A stretch of 64,000 nt of DNA from an uncultured Verrucomicrobiales bacterium. GTDB lineage: Bacteria > Verrucomicrobiota > Verrucomicrobiia > Verrucomicrobiales > Akkermansiaceae. Positions 55,747 through 62,167 of the stretch are shown here, piece after piece (position 1 is the first letter of the stretch; each line of letters opens with the position of its first letter). The stretch lies in NCBI GenBank assembly GCA_949373085.1, contig CASICJ010000012.1:1-64000 (forward strand). The letters are read 5' to 3'. Below the pieces are notes generated by a model. The model was not told the origin of the DNA. It worked only from the letters and a program-made list of their open reading frames with translations, and ran no database searches. The translations under genes and the position numbers were made by a program.

Positions 55747-57112
55747 GTGATTAGCGATTTGAGAGCATGCCTGAGTCCTGGAAAGGTTTCAACGATGGCC
55801 GAAGTCCTTGAGGAGCATGGAACGGACCGATGGAATTTTTCGCATCTACCGGAGGCGGTGGTTTTTGCGGAATGTCGGGATGATGTTGTGGCGGTGATGA
55901 AGTTTGCTAATGAGCGGGGAATTCCGGTGACGACTCGTGGGGCGGGAGTTGGTTATGTTGGTGGGGTGTGTGCCGGTTGAGGGCGGAATTGCCCTGTCGG
56001 TGGCGAGGATGAAGTCAGTGTTGGAGATCATACCGGAGGATGGTGTAGTAGTCACGCAACCGGGGGTGATTTTAAAAGATCTACAAGATGCGGTGAGTGA
56101 CCTTGGTTGGTATTACCCGCCCGATCCGGCTTCTTTGAATGAGTGCTCGATCGGCGGAAATTTGGCTACGAATGCAGGTGGCCCTCGTTGTCTGAAATAT
56201 GGGGTGACGAAGAACTATGTTCTTGGATTAGAGGTGGTCTTGGCAAGTGGTGAGATCCTGAATATCGGAGGACGGTGTCATAAAAACAAGACGGGCTTTG
56301 ATTTGTTGCATCTCTTTGTTGGGAGTGAAGGAATGCTTGGAGTGATAACCGAGGCGACCCTGCGTATTATCCCTCATCCGCAGACTCGTGCGATGCTTAC
56401 AGCGACGTTTCCGGAGTTTGTCGATGCTGCTGGTGCAGTGCAGGCGATTCTAAATTCAGGACACCTTCCATCTGCCCTCGAGATTACGGACGAGTTCACG
56501 CTAAAAGCTGCGCGAGCTTATTTGGGAGAGGGCTCGTTACGTCCGGGTAAGGCTCATTTGATTGTCGAGATCGACGGTCGAGCCAAGGCTGTTGCGAGTG
56601 AATTGAAAGAGTTGGAAGAGGTGCTTAATGAAGTGGGTGCCTTATCGAGCGAATTTCATGCTGATGAGGAGGCTTGCGAAAAGGTTTGGCAATTACGCCG
56701 CGACTTTTCTTATTCTTTGCGAGCAACAGGTTTGACGAAACTAAATGAAGATATTGTTGTTCCGCGGTCCAAATTAGTGGAGTTGGCAGTTTTTGCGGCG
56801 GGACTCGAGAAAAAGACGGGGATTCCGGTGGCCTGCTTTGGTCATGCTGGTGATGGTAATATTCATACAAACTTAATGGTGGAGGATTATGATAATCCGG
56901 TGGTTCGGGAGAAAGCGGACGCGGCCTTAGATGTTCTCTTCACTTGGGTGCTTGAAAACGGAGGGGTAATTACGGGAGAACATGGGGTCGGATTGGCAAA
57001 AAAACCATGGATTAAGGATGCCCTCGGAGAGGTAGCTTTTGCGGCACACCATACGGTTAAGAATGCGTTTGATCCCAAGGGGATTCTAAATCCCGGAAAA
57101 TTCCTCGATTGA
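55747..57112 (+). pseudogene. FAD-linked oxidase (GlcD-type) carrying a one-base frameshift
   Basis: The first frame (GTG 55747; GTG 55741 also possible) begins ISDLRACLSPGKVST and reaches IPVTTRGAGVGYVGG before a stop at 55980. Removing one G from the four at 55963-55966 joins it to GCVPVEGGIALSVARMK and the frame ending at 57112. The restored protein is ~454 residues, the normal size, with the FAD-binding domain (VVTQPGVILKDLQDAV, NLATNAGGPRCLKYGV) and the FAD_oxidase_C domain (CFGHAGDGNIHTNL, GEHGVGLAKKPWI). It resembles glycolate or D-lactate dehydrogenase, but the substrate cannot be assigned. Consensus error is more likely than decay. Confidence 0.85.
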
Positions 57113-57176: not shown

Positions 57177-59168
57177 ATGGCAAGTTGGAAAGAAAACCGG
57201 CTGCAGGTGGTGCTCCAAGCCTCGAGAGAGGGTATCTGGGACTGGGACCTTGTGAAAGGGACCATCTATTATTCTCCGCGAATGTGTCGATTTATGGGGT
57301 ATCGCAAGAGCGAGATGCCAAACTTTTTTCAGGACCGTGGAGAGCACATGGATCTGGCCTCGGTAGCTGCGGTCGACAAAGCTTTGCGTCGAGTTTTACA
57401 GGAGGGCGAGGATTTGTTTGCAGTAGAGCCTAGGGTGAAAACCAAAAGGGGTGACTGGAAGTCTTTCCGGGTTCGGGGGACGCCGGTGCGGGATGGTCTC
57501 GGCAAGGTGACGCGAATCGCAGGTAGCTTGATCAATATTTCAAAACGTAAGGAGGCGGAAAGGCAGCTAGCAGAGGAGAGACACCTCATCGAAACCCTGC
57601 TGGATAACATTCCCATGAATGTGTATTTGAAAGATGAGGAGTCGCGCTTCGTGATGGCGAACTTACCGACAGCCAGAAAGATGGGCTTGAGTTCAGCAAA
57701 GGATTTGATCGGTAAATCAGATGCTGATTTTTTCAGCGATGAACATGCAAGAAATGCTCGGTTGGTTGAGAAGGAAATCATGGCTTCGGGTGGTGGTGTC
57801 GAGGATTTGACAGAGCATGAGAAGTGGAACGATCGCGAAGACACATGGGTTAAGAGTACGAAGCATGCATGGATCGGCCATGATGGCCAAGTGAGGGGAA
57901 CTTTCGGAGTAACTATTGATATTTCTGAATTGATAAGGACCCGTGAAGCCCAAGAAAAGGTGACCTCGCAACTTAATGCACAGAATCATTTAATCGAAGA
58001 GGAACGAGAAAGGCTGCGCCTTGTAATTGATAGTGTGCCTTTACACGTTTACTTTAAAAACCGTGATCATGAATTTGTGATCGCGAATCAGGCGATTGCA
58101 GAGTGGTTTGGATTCAGCTGTCCGGAGGAGCTTTATGATAAGTCGGACCGGGATATTTTTTCCAAAGAGCACTGGAGGAAGACTGAAGCCGATGAGAAAC
58201 AGATCATGGAATTGGGTGTGGCAATCGCGGGGGAGATTGAGAAAGAGATTTGGGGAGGAGAAAAGGAGACTTGGGTGATGACATCAAAGTATCCCTGGCG
58301 TGACAGTGAGGGAGATATAATGGGAACTTTTGGGGTCTCAAGCGACATTTCCGATTTAATGCAGGCGCAGTCGGATCTCCGGAAGCTTGCTTCAACCTAC
58401 GAAAGAAAAAATCGGGAGATGGCCGAAGAATTAGAGTTAGCGAGGGAAGTGCAGCAGGCGCTTTTGCCCGACGAATTCCCAACAGTTTTGGGTGGTGGAG
58501 CGACCATGAAGTTTTGCCGCCTTTATGAGCCAGCTCGCCTGTTGACGGGTGAGTTTTTTGAGGTTCTGCCACTGGCGCCGGATCGGGTTGGTTTTTTGAT
58601 GGGTGAGGTTTTTGATAAGGGAGTGCGCTCAGCCTTAATCGTTTCGATGTTACGAGGGTTGATCGAAAAGGAAATTGCCTCGGCTGGAGACGCAGGGGAT
58701 TTTTTGACTGGGATTAACGTGGGATTATCTCACTTGTTGTTGGGCGCGGGGCATGAGACTAAGGCAACTGCCTTTTATGGTTTAGTGGATTTGACGAAAG
58801 GAGAAATTCAGCTTTCGATCGCTGGACACGTGAACCCGATTGCGGTTTTTGATGACGGCGTTCGTCAGCTTGTGCCGCCAGATCATGCTTGTGGACCAGC
58901 TTTGGGCATTGCTGAGAATAGTAGCTATGGAACGGTATCGGCGCCTCTCTCAGGCTTCCGGAGATTAATTTGTTTCACTGAGGGATTCCAGAGTACGAGT
59001 AATGTTGAGGGTGAAGAGTTTGGTGTAACGCGCATGCTAGAAGAGGTTGAGCGAGGCGGTGATTTAGACCGTGTAATGGAGAGACTTTCAGAGGTAGTAA
59101 AGAATTTCGCAGGAAATCAGAAACTTGAAAATGCAATTTGTTTGTTGGGATGGGAGATCACGAGATGA
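57177..59168 (+). CDS. Triple-PAS protein with degenerate PP2C (SpoIIE-type) domain
   Basis: 663 residues. Three PAS/PAC units are visible: ~10-125 (EGIWDWDLVKGTIYYSPRM, GSLINISKRKEA), ~138-255 (DNIPMNVYLKDEESRFVMA, GTFGVTIDIS) and ~280-395 (DSVPLHVYFKNRDHEFVIA, GTFGVSSDIS). A coiled segment (YERKNREMAEELELAREVQQ) leads to a SpoIIE-type phosphatase fold (~430-660). The acidic metal ligands are replaced: TGEFFE with Glu459 where Asp is expected, GEVFDKG with Glu477, CFTEGF with Glu602, and ENAICLLG (651-658) in place of the terminal Asp-Asp. This predicts a pseudophosphatase or altered activity. It is translationally coupled to the next gene. Confidence 0.85.
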   Translation: MASWKENRLQVVLQASREGIWDWDLVKGTIYYSPRMCRFMGYRKSEMPNFFQDRGEHMDLASVAAVDKALRRVLQEGEDLFAVEPRVKTKRGDWKSFRVRGTPVRDGLGKVTRIAGSLINISKRKEAERQLAEERHLIETLLDNIPMNVYLKDEESRFVMANLPTARKMGLSSAKDLIGKSDADFFSDEHARNARLVEKEIMASGGGVEDLTEHEKWNDREDTWVKSTKHAWIGHDGQVRGTFGVTIDISELIRTREAQEKVTSQLNAQNHLIEEERERLRLVIDSVPLHVYFKNRDHEFVIANQAIAEWFGFSCPEELYDKSDRDIFSKEHWRKTEADEKQIMELGVAIAGEIEKEIWGGEKETWVMTSKYPWRDSEGDIMGTFGVSSDISDLMQAQSDLRKLASTYERKNREMAEELELAREVQQALLPDEFPTVLGGGATMKFCRLYEPARLLTGEFFEVLPLAPDRVGFLMGEVFDKGVRSALIVSMLRGLIEKEIASAGDAGDFLTGINVGLSHLLLGAGHETKATAFYGLVDLTKGEIQLSIAGHVNPIAVFDDGVRQLVPPDHACGPALGIAENSSYGTVSAPLSGFRRLICFTEGFQSTSNVEGEEFGVTRMLEEVERGGDLDRVMERLSEVVKNFAGNQKLENAICLLGWEITR

Positions 59169-61168
59169 GTTTGGAAGAGGAGAGACTTGATTTGGCTCTC
59201 AAGGCTTCGAATGAGGGGATTCTTGATTGGGATTTTCAAACGGGGGAAATATACTATTCTAATCGTTTGCTCGGATTTTTGGGTTATGGTCATTTTGGGG
59301 CGCCCAACATTTTAGAAGAACCAGAGAAACATGTGCATCCTGAAGATTTAGCACGGTTTACTCGTAAGCTAAATCGAGTCCTATATCGGGGCGGAAAGTT
59401 GTTTGCAGATGAGGCAAGAATTCGCACAAACTCAGGTGAGTGGAAATGGTTTAGAGCAAGGGCTTTACCATTGCGGGATGACGATGGAACCTTGAGGCGC
59501 TTGGTAGGAAGCCTAATCGATATTTCAAAGCGACGCTTTGCGGAGAAGGCCCTGGCCGAGGAACGCAAGATGATCGATTTGATTTTAGATCGGGTTCCTA
59601 TTAATGTTTATTTTAAGGACAAAGATTCCCGCTTTATGCGGGCAAATCGGTCAACTGCTCAACGCGTGGGAGCTGGAACGATTGCGAATTTGATCGGGAA
59701 AAGGGATCACGATTTCTTTGAAAAGGAGCATGCTGATTTCTCGCGGGCCCGAGAGCTTGAAATTATGGAGTCGGAGGTTGGTCAGGAGGAGAAGTTGGAG
59801 CATGAGATCTGGGGGGACGGGCATGAGTCGTGGAGTTTAGTGACCAAGAAAGTGTGGCGGGGATTGAACGGAGAGTTACTTGGAACTTTTGGTCTAACTC
59901 ATGATGTGACTGAGCTAATCGAAACTGAGCGGAACCTTGAGCAGATTGCGGAGAAATTGAGAGTGGTTAATCAGGAAATTAGTGAAGAACGCCACCTTCT
60001 TCGGCTAGTAATTGATAATATGCCGGTGTTTGTTTACTTTAAAGACTTGGATTCAAACTTTGTTTTGATGAACCAAAGGATGTCTGACCTTGTAGGAGCT
60101 AAATCTCCGGATGAGGCGGTGGGCAAAAGTGATAGTCACTTTTTTGGAGAGAAACTGGTCCGGGAATCGATCCGGGATGAACGGGAAATCATGGCTACCG
60201 GCAAGCCGGTGGTGAGGAAGCTCGAAGAAATATCTTGGAAGGATGACCATGTTTCTTGGGCCGTGTCTTCAAAATATCCGTGGTATTTGCCGGACGGAAC
60301 CTTACGGGGAATTTTTGGAGTTTCTTCGGACGTGACTAAGTTGATTGAAACAAAGCAACAGCTTGAAAAGATCACAAGGATTTTGGGACGTCAGAATGAT
60401 GCTCTTGAAGAGCAGTTGGGGTTGGCGCGCGAGATTCAGCAGGCGGCTTTGCCTAGTGTAATTCCATCTATTACGTGTCAGGAAAGTGGGCGTAAGGCAA
60501 ATTTCCATCATCGTTATCAACCTGCTTCTCATCTTGCTGGAGACTTTTTTGAGGTGATTCCACTGGGTGAAGGTAAGGCTGGATTTTTTATCTGTGATGT
60601 TATGGGGCATGGCGTGCGTTCGGCCCTGATCGTTTCGATGTTGCGTGGTTTACTTGAAAAGCAGAGAGAGACTCTTGGAGATCAGCCAGGGGCATTTTTG
60701 GAGGGGTTGAATGATGGCTTGTCCCACCTGCTTGAGCGAACTAGTCAATTAATTTTTGCGACTGCAATCTATGGTTATGTGGACTTAGAACGTGGTGAGC
60801 TGAAGATCGCTTCAGCTGGTCATCCGGATCCCATTGTGAGTCGGAATGGAGTGGTTGAAGTTTTAGAATTGGAATCTGAGGCGCAGGGTCCTGGATTGGG
60901 TATGGTCCCGGATTTTAAATTTCCGGAGATGTGTCTTCCTGTAGAATCTTTGGATGGAATCTGGAGCTTTACCGATGGTCTTTTTGAGGTTCTGGGTGTT
61001 GATGGACACGAGTTTGGCGTAGCCAAAATGTGTGAGGCGCTTCAGGGCGGGGGACGAACGGTGGATGCAATTGACCGGGTAGTGAACGCCGCTGTTAATT
61101 TTGCAGCTGAAAAGGTTTTTGAGGATGATCTCTGTGTTTTGGGGATCGATTTTAGGCACCGGGCTTGA
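59165..61168 (+). CDS. Triple-PAS protein with intact PP2C (SpoIIE-type) phosphatase domain
   Basis: 667 residues from ATG 59165, which overlaps the preceding TGA as ATGA. It has the same layout as its neighbour: PAS units at ~10-125 (GILDWDFQTGEIYYSNRL), ~137-255 (DRVPINVYFKDKDSRFMRA) and ~280-395 (DNMPVFVYFKDLDSNFVLM), a coiled linker (NDALEEQLGLAREIQQAAL), and a SpoIIE domain. Here the ligands are canonical: AGDFFE (Asp460), ICDVMGHG (Asp478), SFTDGL (Asp604) and DDLCVLG (Asp654-Asp655). These enzymes dephosphorylate Ser/Thr proteins such as anti-sigma-factor antagonists, with PAS sensors controlling activity. It is a tandem paralogue of the degenerate neighbour. Confidence 0.9.
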   Translation: MSLEEERLDLALKASNEGILDWDFQTGEIYYSNRLLGFLGYGHFGAPNILEEPEKHVHPEDLARFTRKLNRVLYRGGKLFADEARIRTNSGEWKWFRARALPLRDDDGTLRRLVGSLIDISKRRFAEKALAEERKMIDLILDRVPINVYFKDKDSRFMRANRSTAQRVGAGTIANLIGKRDHDFFEKEHADFSRARELEIMESEVGQEEKLEHEIWGDGHESWSLVTKKVWRGLNGELLGTFGLTHDVTELIETERNLEQIAEKLRVVNQEISEERHLLRLVIDNMPVFVYFKDLDSNFVLMNQRMSDLVGAKSPDEAVGKSDSHFFGEKLVRESIRDEREIMATGKPVVRKLEEISWKDDHVSWAVSSKYPWYLPDGTLRGIFGVSSDVTKLIETKQQLEKITRILGRQNDALEEQLGLAREIQQAALPSVIPSITCQESGRKANFHHRYQPASHLAGDFFEVIPLGEGKAGFFICDVMGHGVRSALIVSMLRGLLEKQRETLGDQPGAFLEGLNDGLSHLLERTSQLIFATAIYGYVDLERGELKIASAGHPDPIVSRNGVVEVLELESEAQGPGLGMVPDFKFPEMCLPVESLDGIWSFTDGLFEVLGVDGHEFGVAKMCEALQGGGRTVDAIDRVVNAAVNFAAEKVFEDDLCVLGIDFRHRA

Positions 61169-61201: not shown

Positions 61202-62167
61202 TTGAGCGAGAATATTGCAATCCTGACTTCCGGTGGAGATGCTGCGGGGATGAATCCCGCGGTGAGATCTGCTGCTGATTATGCCCGCAAGAAGGGGATG
61301 GTTCCTTACTTAGTTGAATGGGGGTTAAGAGGCTTAATTGAGGGCTGGATCAAAGAGGCAACGCCTGAGTGTCTCAGCGGTATGCTCTATCGGGGTGGCA
61401 CTGCGCTTGGTTCCTCGAGATCGAAGCGTTTTTTTGAATATGAATTCAGAAGGCAAGCTTATGATAATTTGCAGAAGGTTGGAATTTCAAAACTCATCAT
61501 CATTGGTGGAGATGGTTCCTTTAACGCTTTAAACCAATTCTACGTCGATTTTAAGGTGCCGTTTGCGGGTATTCCTGCGACGATTGACAACGACATTTCG
61601 GGGACAGATTACTGCCTCGGTGTTGACACAGCGCTCAATATGATTCGCTCAAGTGTGGATAGTATTCGTGATACTGCTTCTTCTTTTTCAAGGGCGTTTG
61701 TAATAGAGACGATGGGACGTGATTGTGGGTATCTTGCGATGGTAAGTGCGCTTGCAAACGGCGCGGAAGTTTGTCTGGTTCCAGAGATCAAGTATGACCT
61801 CGATGCGGTTGGCGAACGATTACGGCAACAACGTGCGGCCGGGAAACGCTATGTTCTAGGGATTGTTGCGGAAGGGACTGGTATGGCCGAACCGTTGACG
61901 CGATGGATGGGTGACTTTTTGGATATGGATGCCCGTCTGACTGTTTTGGGCCACGTCCAGAGAGGTGGATCCCCGACAGTTTATGATCGGATTATGGCCT
62001 ATAAATTTGCAGTTGCAGCTGTTGATCACCTGCTAGCTGGCGATACTAATCGGGTCGTGACATTTAGGAATGGTCGGTTTGGTAGTTCCTCTATCCATCA
62101 GATTTCTGAAACCAAGCATGAGTGTGAGGCAAGTCTGCTTGATTTAGTTCGGGGGTTGAGTTGCTAG
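61202..62167 (+). CDS. pfkA: 6-phosphofructokinase (ATP-type)
   Basis: 321 residues, starting at TTG 61202. Motifs are ILTSGGDAAGMNPAVRSAA (7-25), IGGDGSFNAL (101-110), IPATIDNDISG (124-134, catalytic Asp129), ETMGRDCGYLAMVSALA, EGTGM and HVQRGGSPTVYDR. Gly at the GGDGS position (105) and no Lys in PATIDND fit the ATP-dependent form over the PPi form. It phosphorylates fructose 6-phosphate in glycolysis. It follows the PAS-PP2C pair by 33 nt on the same strand. The stop overlaps the lpxA stop by four bases. Confidence 0.93.
   Translation: MSENIAILTSGGDAAGMNPAVRSAADYARKKGMVPYLVEWGLRGLIEGWIKEATPECLSGMLYRGGTALGSSRSKRFFEYEFRRQAYDNLQKVGISKLIIIGGDGSFNALNQFYVDFKVPFAGIPATIDNDISGTDYCLGVDTALNMIRSSVDSIRDTASSFSRAFVIETMGRDCGYLAMVSALANGAEVCLVPEIKYDLDAVGERLRQQRAAGKRYVLGIVAEGTGMAEPLTRWMGDFLDMDARLTVLGHVQRGGSPTVYDRIMAYKFAVAAVDHLLAGDTNRVVTFRNGRFGSSSIHQISETKHECEASLLDLVRGLSC

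Follow-up and report, generated by a model that had tools for sequence, protein, structure and literature searches.

Two overlapping genes of an uncultured Verrucomicrobiales bacterium (family Akkermansiaceae; GenBank assembly GCA_949373085.1) are described here. They lie in positions 1 to 64,000 of contig CASICJ010000012.1, a stretch of 64,000 nucleotides that was analysed as a whole and is called the window below, and we refer to them as gene A and gene B (Table 1). Each product was assigned a SpoIIE-type protein phosphatase 2C (PP2C) domain by PF07228 (76.3 bits in A and 125.7 bits in B, with a cut-off of 25), preceded by PAS domains that were recognized by Pfam in both proteins and, for the three of A, also in the full-length structure model. 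The original prediction, which was made from the sequence alone, described a co-linear triple-PAS/SpoIIE pair overlapping by ATGA, and both open reading frames were found where it had placed them, the start codon of gene A being the one given in the list of open reading frames. Within the window, A and B share 45, 47, and 40% identity in the three PAS domains, 41% in the linker, and 38% in the PP2C domain. They are the SpoIIE proteins of their own genome (G000), together with a weak third match that is a PP2C_2 protein; this genome is 81% complete, while the other genomes were chosen at a completeness of at least 85%. No relative covering 80% of A was found among plasmid sequences.

Table 1. 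Positions of the two genes, their domains, and the residues discussed in the text (window coordinates).
Feature	Position	Strand	Remark
Gene A	57177..59168	+	663 aa; triple-PAS, helical linker, SpoIIE-type PP2C without metal ligands (pseudophosphatase)
Gene B	59165..61168	+	667 aa; triple-PAS, helical linker, SpoIIE-type PP2C with all ligands
ATGA overlap, stop of A and start of B	59165..59168	+	
A PAS1, residues 5-125	57189..57551	+	Approximate limits; Pfam and model
A PAS2, residues 136-255	57582..57941	+	Approximate limits; Pfam and model
A PAS3, residues 280-394	58014..58358	+	Approximate limits; Pfam and model
A helical linker, residues 395-431	58359..58469	+	Helix 392-428 in full-length model
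A Tyr408	58398..58400	+	Aligned with Leu145 (P. aeruginosa RssB) and Trp143 (E. coli RssB)
A Glu459	58551..58553	+	SpoIIE Asp610 position
A Glu477	58605..58607	+	SpoIIE Asp628 position
A helix alpha1, residues 483-498	58623..58670	+	Model
A Glu602	58980..58982	+	SpoIIE Asp746 position
A Asn652-Ala653	59130..59135	+	B Asp654-Asp655; Asn652 at SpoIIE Asp795 position
B Asp460	60542..60544	+	
B Asp478	60596..60598	+	
B Asp604	60974..60976	+	
B Asp654-Asp655	61124..61129	+	
pfkA-like 6-phosphofructokinase gene	61202..62167	+	Downstream neighbour kept in the genus

Alignment to the Bacillus subtilis SpoIIE structure (PDB 5ucg) places Asp460, Asp478, Asp604, and Asp654 of B on SpoIIE Asp610, Asp628, Asp746, and Asp795, the numbering being counted onward from Asp610, with Asp795 then the first Asp of EDD. 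According to the available text on SpoIIE, the Mn present is bound by Asp628, Asp746, and Asp795, and the second-metal site consists of Asp610, Asp628, and Gly629 (PMC3517971). At these four positions, at which an active metal-dependent protein phosphatase (PPM) is expected to have Asp, B has Asp throughout and A has none. The alignment agrees with the original prediction that Glu459, Glu477, and Glu602 occupy the metal-Asp positions of A and that B retains Asp460, Asp478, Asp604, and Asp654-Asp655. The prediction was also right that the terminal Asp pair of A is lost, but it was off by one in naming Glu651-Asn652 as the replacement: the residues are Asn652-Ala653, and Glu651 aligns with Glu653 of B, which is not a ligand position. 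A is without metal ligands and, judged by its sequence, is a pseudophosphatase, in which the ligands are gone while the fold and purifying selection have been retained, as described below.

The same pair, for which a search in other Verrucomicrobia had been proposed, is present in relatives: a match to A was found in all of the 27 genus genomes examined, and it is paired with B in every one of them. Eight of these A copies are fully catalytic (L059-L062 and L064-L067), three are intermediate, and 16 are disarmed. At sites 459, 477, 602, and 652 the intermediate copies have D, D, E, S (L063), D, D, D, E (L055), and D, E, E, N (L058). All 16 disarmed copies have Glu459 and Glu477, with Asn or Lys at 652, and site 602 drifts among them (E, D, G, S, or Q; Asp in L050). 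The PP2C domain was read in 27 A and 26 B copies (B of L053 lies off the contig end, L063 has a truncated B, and the B frame of L044 is broken), and in the genus B has Asp at the first and second ligand sites in 26/26, at the third in 24/25, and at the fourth in 25/25. In a quick tree of 93 PAS3 plus PP2C rows, genus A and genus B each formed one clade (99 each by the Shimodaira-Hasegawa-like approximate likelihood ratio test), and the tandem pair of g9, a different genus, was separate from both. A second, more careful tree was built from 50 full-length rows, without 13 trait-linked columns and without L044_B, L063_B, and L068_A. It recovered the B clade (100/100) and one clade of 18 degenerate A rows (100/98), with the catalytic A copies outside the latter; among the degenerate rows, L063 branches first, then L055, and then L058. 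Judging from this branching order, Asp652-Asp653 would have been lost first, Asp477 next, and Asp459 last, and site 602 appears to have changed several times. The loss of ligands was stepwise and took place in one clade, under purifying selection, and beside a coupled twin that has all of its ligands, which is a stronger finding than the original prediction had claimed.

An Asp-to-Glu change that is a common active variant, which had been named as a finding that would speak against the prediction, was not seen in the phylum sample. Among 91 SpoIIE domains from 37 genomes (91 of 104 matches, three from the own genome and 10 partial or weak ones being left out), the four ligand sites have Asp in 90, 90, 89, and 89, and none has Glu (0/91), and this explanation was rejected. 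His448 and His481, which differ in the disarmed copies, were dropped as part of the disarming and are not counted as catalytic losses because both vary in the same control (His448 in 11/91; Lys in 42/91 and His in 33/91 at site 481). Two of the 91 domains look degenerate. One is L222 (G002:C7:33400-34369), a second SpoIIE domain from the same family (a g3 genome), in which ligands three and four are missing and the first two are kept; the other, L230 (G198:C351:1381-2374), from another family of the phylum, has lost all four.

The ratio of nonsynonymous to synonymous substitution rates (dN/dS), calculated by the Nei-Gojobori method for 21 pairs from seven close species with disarmed A, was 0.055 for whole A versus 0.063 for B, and 0.093 versus 0.079 for the PP2C domain; these values are rough because the synonymous distances are about 0.9. 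No internal stop was found in the 27 genus A matches, of which that of L068 is cut by the contig end. Random decay of A was rejected on the basis of the low dN/dS and the open frames, in line with the original claim that the ligand loss is unlike such decay. The substitution rates indicate slight relaxation of the PP2C domain of A relative to that of B after the loss, and no decay. Conservation was counted by site for the linker and PP2C only (the L068 row is without the PAS part, and gaps count as changes). Across 34 catalytic copies, 62 PP2C sites are near-invariant. All 16 disarmed A keep 31 of these sites, and at least 15 of the 16 have a change at each of 10 others (H448, A457, D459, D477, H481, E522, F529, D602, D652, and D653), among which are all four ligands and D653.

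The linker and PP2C domain of A were modelled by AlphaFold2 as a confident PP2C fold (predicted local distance difference test score, pLDDT, 91.1; predicted template modelling score, pTM, 0.87). The full-length model (pLDDT 79.6, pTM 0.43), whose global arrangement is unsure, has three PAS-like folds with long connecting helices, the last of which runs into the PP2C domain. A Foldseek search, a fold test made on A only, gave the PP2C domain of Pseudomonas aeruginosa SiaA as the best match (6k4e; E 2.8e-14, TM score 0.76), and other good matches among solved folds were P. aeruginosa RssB (3eq2, rank 3) and the RsbU/RsbW domains of Rv1364c (3ke6). In RsbU, the linker and helices alpha1/alpha2 form a dimer switch that recruits metal, according to the available text of PMC12143880, and a helical linker leading into such a switch, as in RsbU and RsbP, was found in the model of A (helices 392-428 and 483-498). 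The 15-residue window best shared by A and B after the loss, over the whole protein, is 484-498, which lies inside alpha1; its identity is 0.94 over 14 species, versus 0.39 over the PP2C region.

Residue 408 in the linker differs between the disarmed A and the other copies of the genus. It is Leu in 26/26 B, 8/8 catalytic A, and 3/3 intermediate A, and Tyr or Phe in 16/16 disarmed A; in 39 other rows of the family it is Leu in 37 and Tyr in two. Ungapped extension of the alignments puts it at Leu145 of P. aeruginosa RssB, which aligns with Trp143 of Escherichia coli RssB, the latter step being less sure because a gap is close to Trp143. In the part of PMC12143880 that is available, Trp143 of RssB is given as the homologue of RsbU Gln94, which sets linker packing and activation, and replacement of Gln94 by Leu, Tyr, Phe, or Trp altered the activation of RsbU in each case. 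The change at residue 408 suggests that loss of catalysis and retuning of the dimer switch can coincide.

The start-stop overlap of the window is conserved in relatives. Counted from the end of the stop codon of A, position -4 has a start codon in 24 of 26 pairs (22 ATG, one GTG, and one TTG), and the exceptions are L044, which has the same letters in a broken frame, and L058, which is without it. In L044 (G160:C13), two stops split B, and since the neighbouring genes are split as well, assembly errors explain this break better than gene loss does.

Components of a partner switch were also looked for. No match to STAS, STAS_2, or HATPase_c_2 was found on the contig of the window; the target, which the original prediction had left open after seeing no anti-sigma partner nearby, is now narrowed to a candidate. 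This is P0003, a stand-alone STAS protein of 178 amino acids encoded on a contig other than that of the window (G000:C7:11558-12091), with 28.1 bits to PF01740 (cut-off 22.6); its best NCBIfam match is RssC, at 26.2 bits and far below the cut-off. The motif [GA]MDSTFMG was present in all 30 STAS loci read, which were the best matches, and we take the Ser of the MDST motif of P0003 to be the phosphorylated residue, by comparison with RsbV and SpoIIAA. The genome thus has, in P0003, an RsbV-type STAS protein with a phospho-acceptor motif, and this RssC-like protein is perhaps the best substrate candidate in it. P0003-like STAS proteins are widespread in the family (181 of 195 genomes). They are present even in 24 of the 28 genomes that have no P0001-like match at 1e-20 (eight of the 28 being identified by comparing genome lists), and their co-occurrence was dropped as a diagnostic of the phosphatase. 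As for the kinase, the own genome has a single PF13581 match, within an open reading frame of 395 amino acids that reads like a histidine kinase, and in the genus this model matches in 27/27 genomes, 25 of them above the cut-off, in open frames of at least 279 amino acids.

Judging from the stepwise loss of ligands under strong selection, A is probably a regulator of B and not an enzyme. We lean, with somewhat better than even confidence, to the reading that A is a selected pseudophosphatase that regulates B, probably in a mixed dimer, and that B acts on a STAS-type protein. A single tandem duplication before the radiation of the genus would have given A and B, of which B would have remained a phosphatase of the SpoIIE/RsbU type, with its ligands all in place. 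A would have lost its ligands stepwise in one lineage while its PAS sensors, signalling helices, and alpha1 switch helix were kept under purifying selection. Its contacts with B would be made by the PAS domains, the linker, and the face of alpha1, and through them its sensors would change how the B domain binds metal and how active it is; B would dephosphorylate a STAS protein of the anti-anti-sigma type, the best candidate being P0003. A broader proposal, to which we give a little less than an even chance, is that the genus preserves the path from an enzyme to a regulatory pseudoenzyme: starting from a catalytic A, the C-terminal Asp pair, with one Mn1 ligand, would have gone first, then Asp477 would have become Glu, and then Asp459 as well, the latter on the same branch as the switch from Leu to an aromatic residue at 408, the linker position that tunes RsbU and RssB. 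The twin would have kept its ligands, and A would have come to serve solely as an allosteric subunit in a mixed PAS-PP2C dimer. Because catalytic, intermediate, and dead A share one operon position in related species, these species can be compared to test both in what order the changes came and what the dead copy does.

Several observations weigh against regulation of B by A in a mixed dimer. Alpha1 is conserved throughout the 90 family domains compared, so its retention in A is no proof of an A-B interface, and a homodimer of A would retain it as well. Aromatic 408 is not confined to dead copies, since the two Tyr408 rows of the family (L070 and L071) are second copies from g9 in which no ligand is missing. 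B of L058 has Glu at the Asp604 position, beside an alignment gap, and A of the same locus is only partly disarmed. The PP2C domain of A evolved somewhat faster than that of B in two further small sets of disarmed species, with dN/dS of 0.105 versus 0.081 in L050/L051 (one pair) and of 0.148 (one pair) versus 0.092 (three pairs) in L054/L056/L057, and the A/B ratio of amino-acid distances in this domain rose from 0.81 before the loss (10 pairs) to 0.98 after it (28 pairs). On the substrate side, the presence of the STAS gene in family genomes without a P0001-like gene makes the link of P0003 to B a suggestion only. The own genome, with its completeness of 81%, yielded no stand-alone RsbW-type kinase, and a full partner switch is thus not assembled.

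Among the other explanations, A may be a decoy or adaptor that binds substrate, its dead PP2C domain sequestering or delivering the STAS protein or another client and leaving B untouched. This we consider rather unlikely, even though such a role is proposed for Chlamydia CT589 and known for E. coli RssB, both of which are described in the available parts of their sources as RsbU/SpoIIE-type proteins without ligands or activity, and even though A has an aromatic residue at the Trp143 position of E. coli RssB and is predicted by its model to retain the fold. The conserved start-stop overlap (24/26) and the pairing with B in 27/27 genomes better fit B as the partner, and the old ligand site 602 drifts among E, D, G, S, and Q, although a client site could be elsewhere. 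That A is a duplicate in decay, retained through its place in the operon, is very improbable: lost ligands and a slight rate rise of its PP2C domain relative to B are what such a copy would have, but not a dN/dS of 0.055 for the whole protein and 0.093 for PP2C in seven close species after the loss, nor the lack of stops in 27 A matches.

Improbable, though less extreme, is the possibility that A has remained enzymatically active, with Glu residues forming a modified metal site. Three Glu carboxylates are left in the window species, and Glu459 and Glu477 are invariant in 16/16 disarmed A. Chlamydia CT259 has Glu at the first two sites according to its authors, and Cpp1, apparently the same protein, is described as a broad-specificity phosphatase in the available part of a review. 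PHLPP2 keeps an altered (zinc) metal site, yet it is reported as inactive in the available text of PMC12002173. However, CT259 retains the other two Asp residues and, in the text available, had no action on RsbV1 or RsbV2, while A has Asn or Lys at site 652, and relatives with the same Glu pair have Gly, Ser, or Gln at site 602. Not one of the 91 phylum domains has Glu at a ligand site.

To our knowledge, few bacterial PPM pseudophosphatases are known. No account of this pair was found in the literature on PP2C/SpoIIE/PPM pseudophosphatases and on verrucomicrobial SpoIIE proteins, as far as it was accessible (subscription journals being mostly uncovered). By description, A and B resemble RsbU (CT588) and CT589 of Chlamydia trachomatis, two RsbU-type paralogues that are numbered consecutively and of which, in the available accounts, one has the ligands and the other lacks them. 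CT588 and CT589 are predicted there to cross the membrane and to have a periplasmic domain, whereas A and B are triple-PAS proteins with an ATGA overlap, and some species of the genus still have the dead copy in a catalytic form; the role of CT589 beside its active paralogue is unsettled in the literature available. E. coli RssB is also alike in having an RsbU-type pseudophosphatase domain behind a helical linker, with the aromatic Trp143 at the Tyr408 position of A. Unlike A, it has a receiver domain in place of PAS domains, a C-terminally truncated PP2C, and a role as an adaptor for sigma-S degradation, and the text available mentions no tandem active twin.

P. aeruginosa RssB/RssC resembles the present system in having an active PP2C with a linker. 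The NCBIfam RssB model (NF045505) matched A with 22.3 bits and B with 46.5 bits, far below its cut-off of 700 bits, and it is PAS domains that precede the PP2C here. P. aeruginosa RssB is a single active copy with a receiver domain, encoded in an operon with rssC (PMC12143880, available part), whereas the STAS gene is here on another contig. SiaA, the top fold match of A, shares only 19% identity with it. B. subtilis RsbU and RsbP are dimeric phosphatases controlled through the linker and alpha1/alpha2, RsbP with a PAS sensor; they are activated by RsbT and RsbQ, respectively, unlike A and B, and no dead paralogue is mentioned in the available text (PMC12143880). The pseudophosphatase PHLPP2 of animals is, unlike A, eukaryotic. 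Its domain context differs from that of A as well. It is like A in being a PPM member whose activity was lost in evolution, according to the available text of PMC12002173.

The pfkA-like gene lies downstream of the pair at 24 of 25 judgeable genus loci (with a gap of 1.5 kb in L067, and absent in L056) and in 0/34 other family stretches. A glcD-like gene is upstream of the pair at 16 loci, absent at eight, and not judgeable at three; both neighbour counts were made by hand. The neighbourhood alone does not demonstrate a glycolytic role. The glcD-like gene of the window (55937-57112, 391 amino acids) begins its match to TIGR00387 at profile position 36/413, and the corresponding open frame in L043 and L046 has 466 codons; the window copy may be truncated at the N-terminus or frameshifted in the assembly. 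Within A, long antisense frames on the minus strand (58207-58713 and 57332-57985) recur in several relatives, and our guess is that they are a by-product of codon use. In genus g9, the separate tandem SpoIIE pair was read at six loci; the first copy of L071 (G022) has Asn at the third ligand site, and the other first copies have Asp (5/5). L003 (523-1731, G000:C44) has a PP2C_2 phosphatase domain with a weak, below-cut-off APH match N-terminally, and it adjoins a gene whose translation reads like glutamine synthetase.

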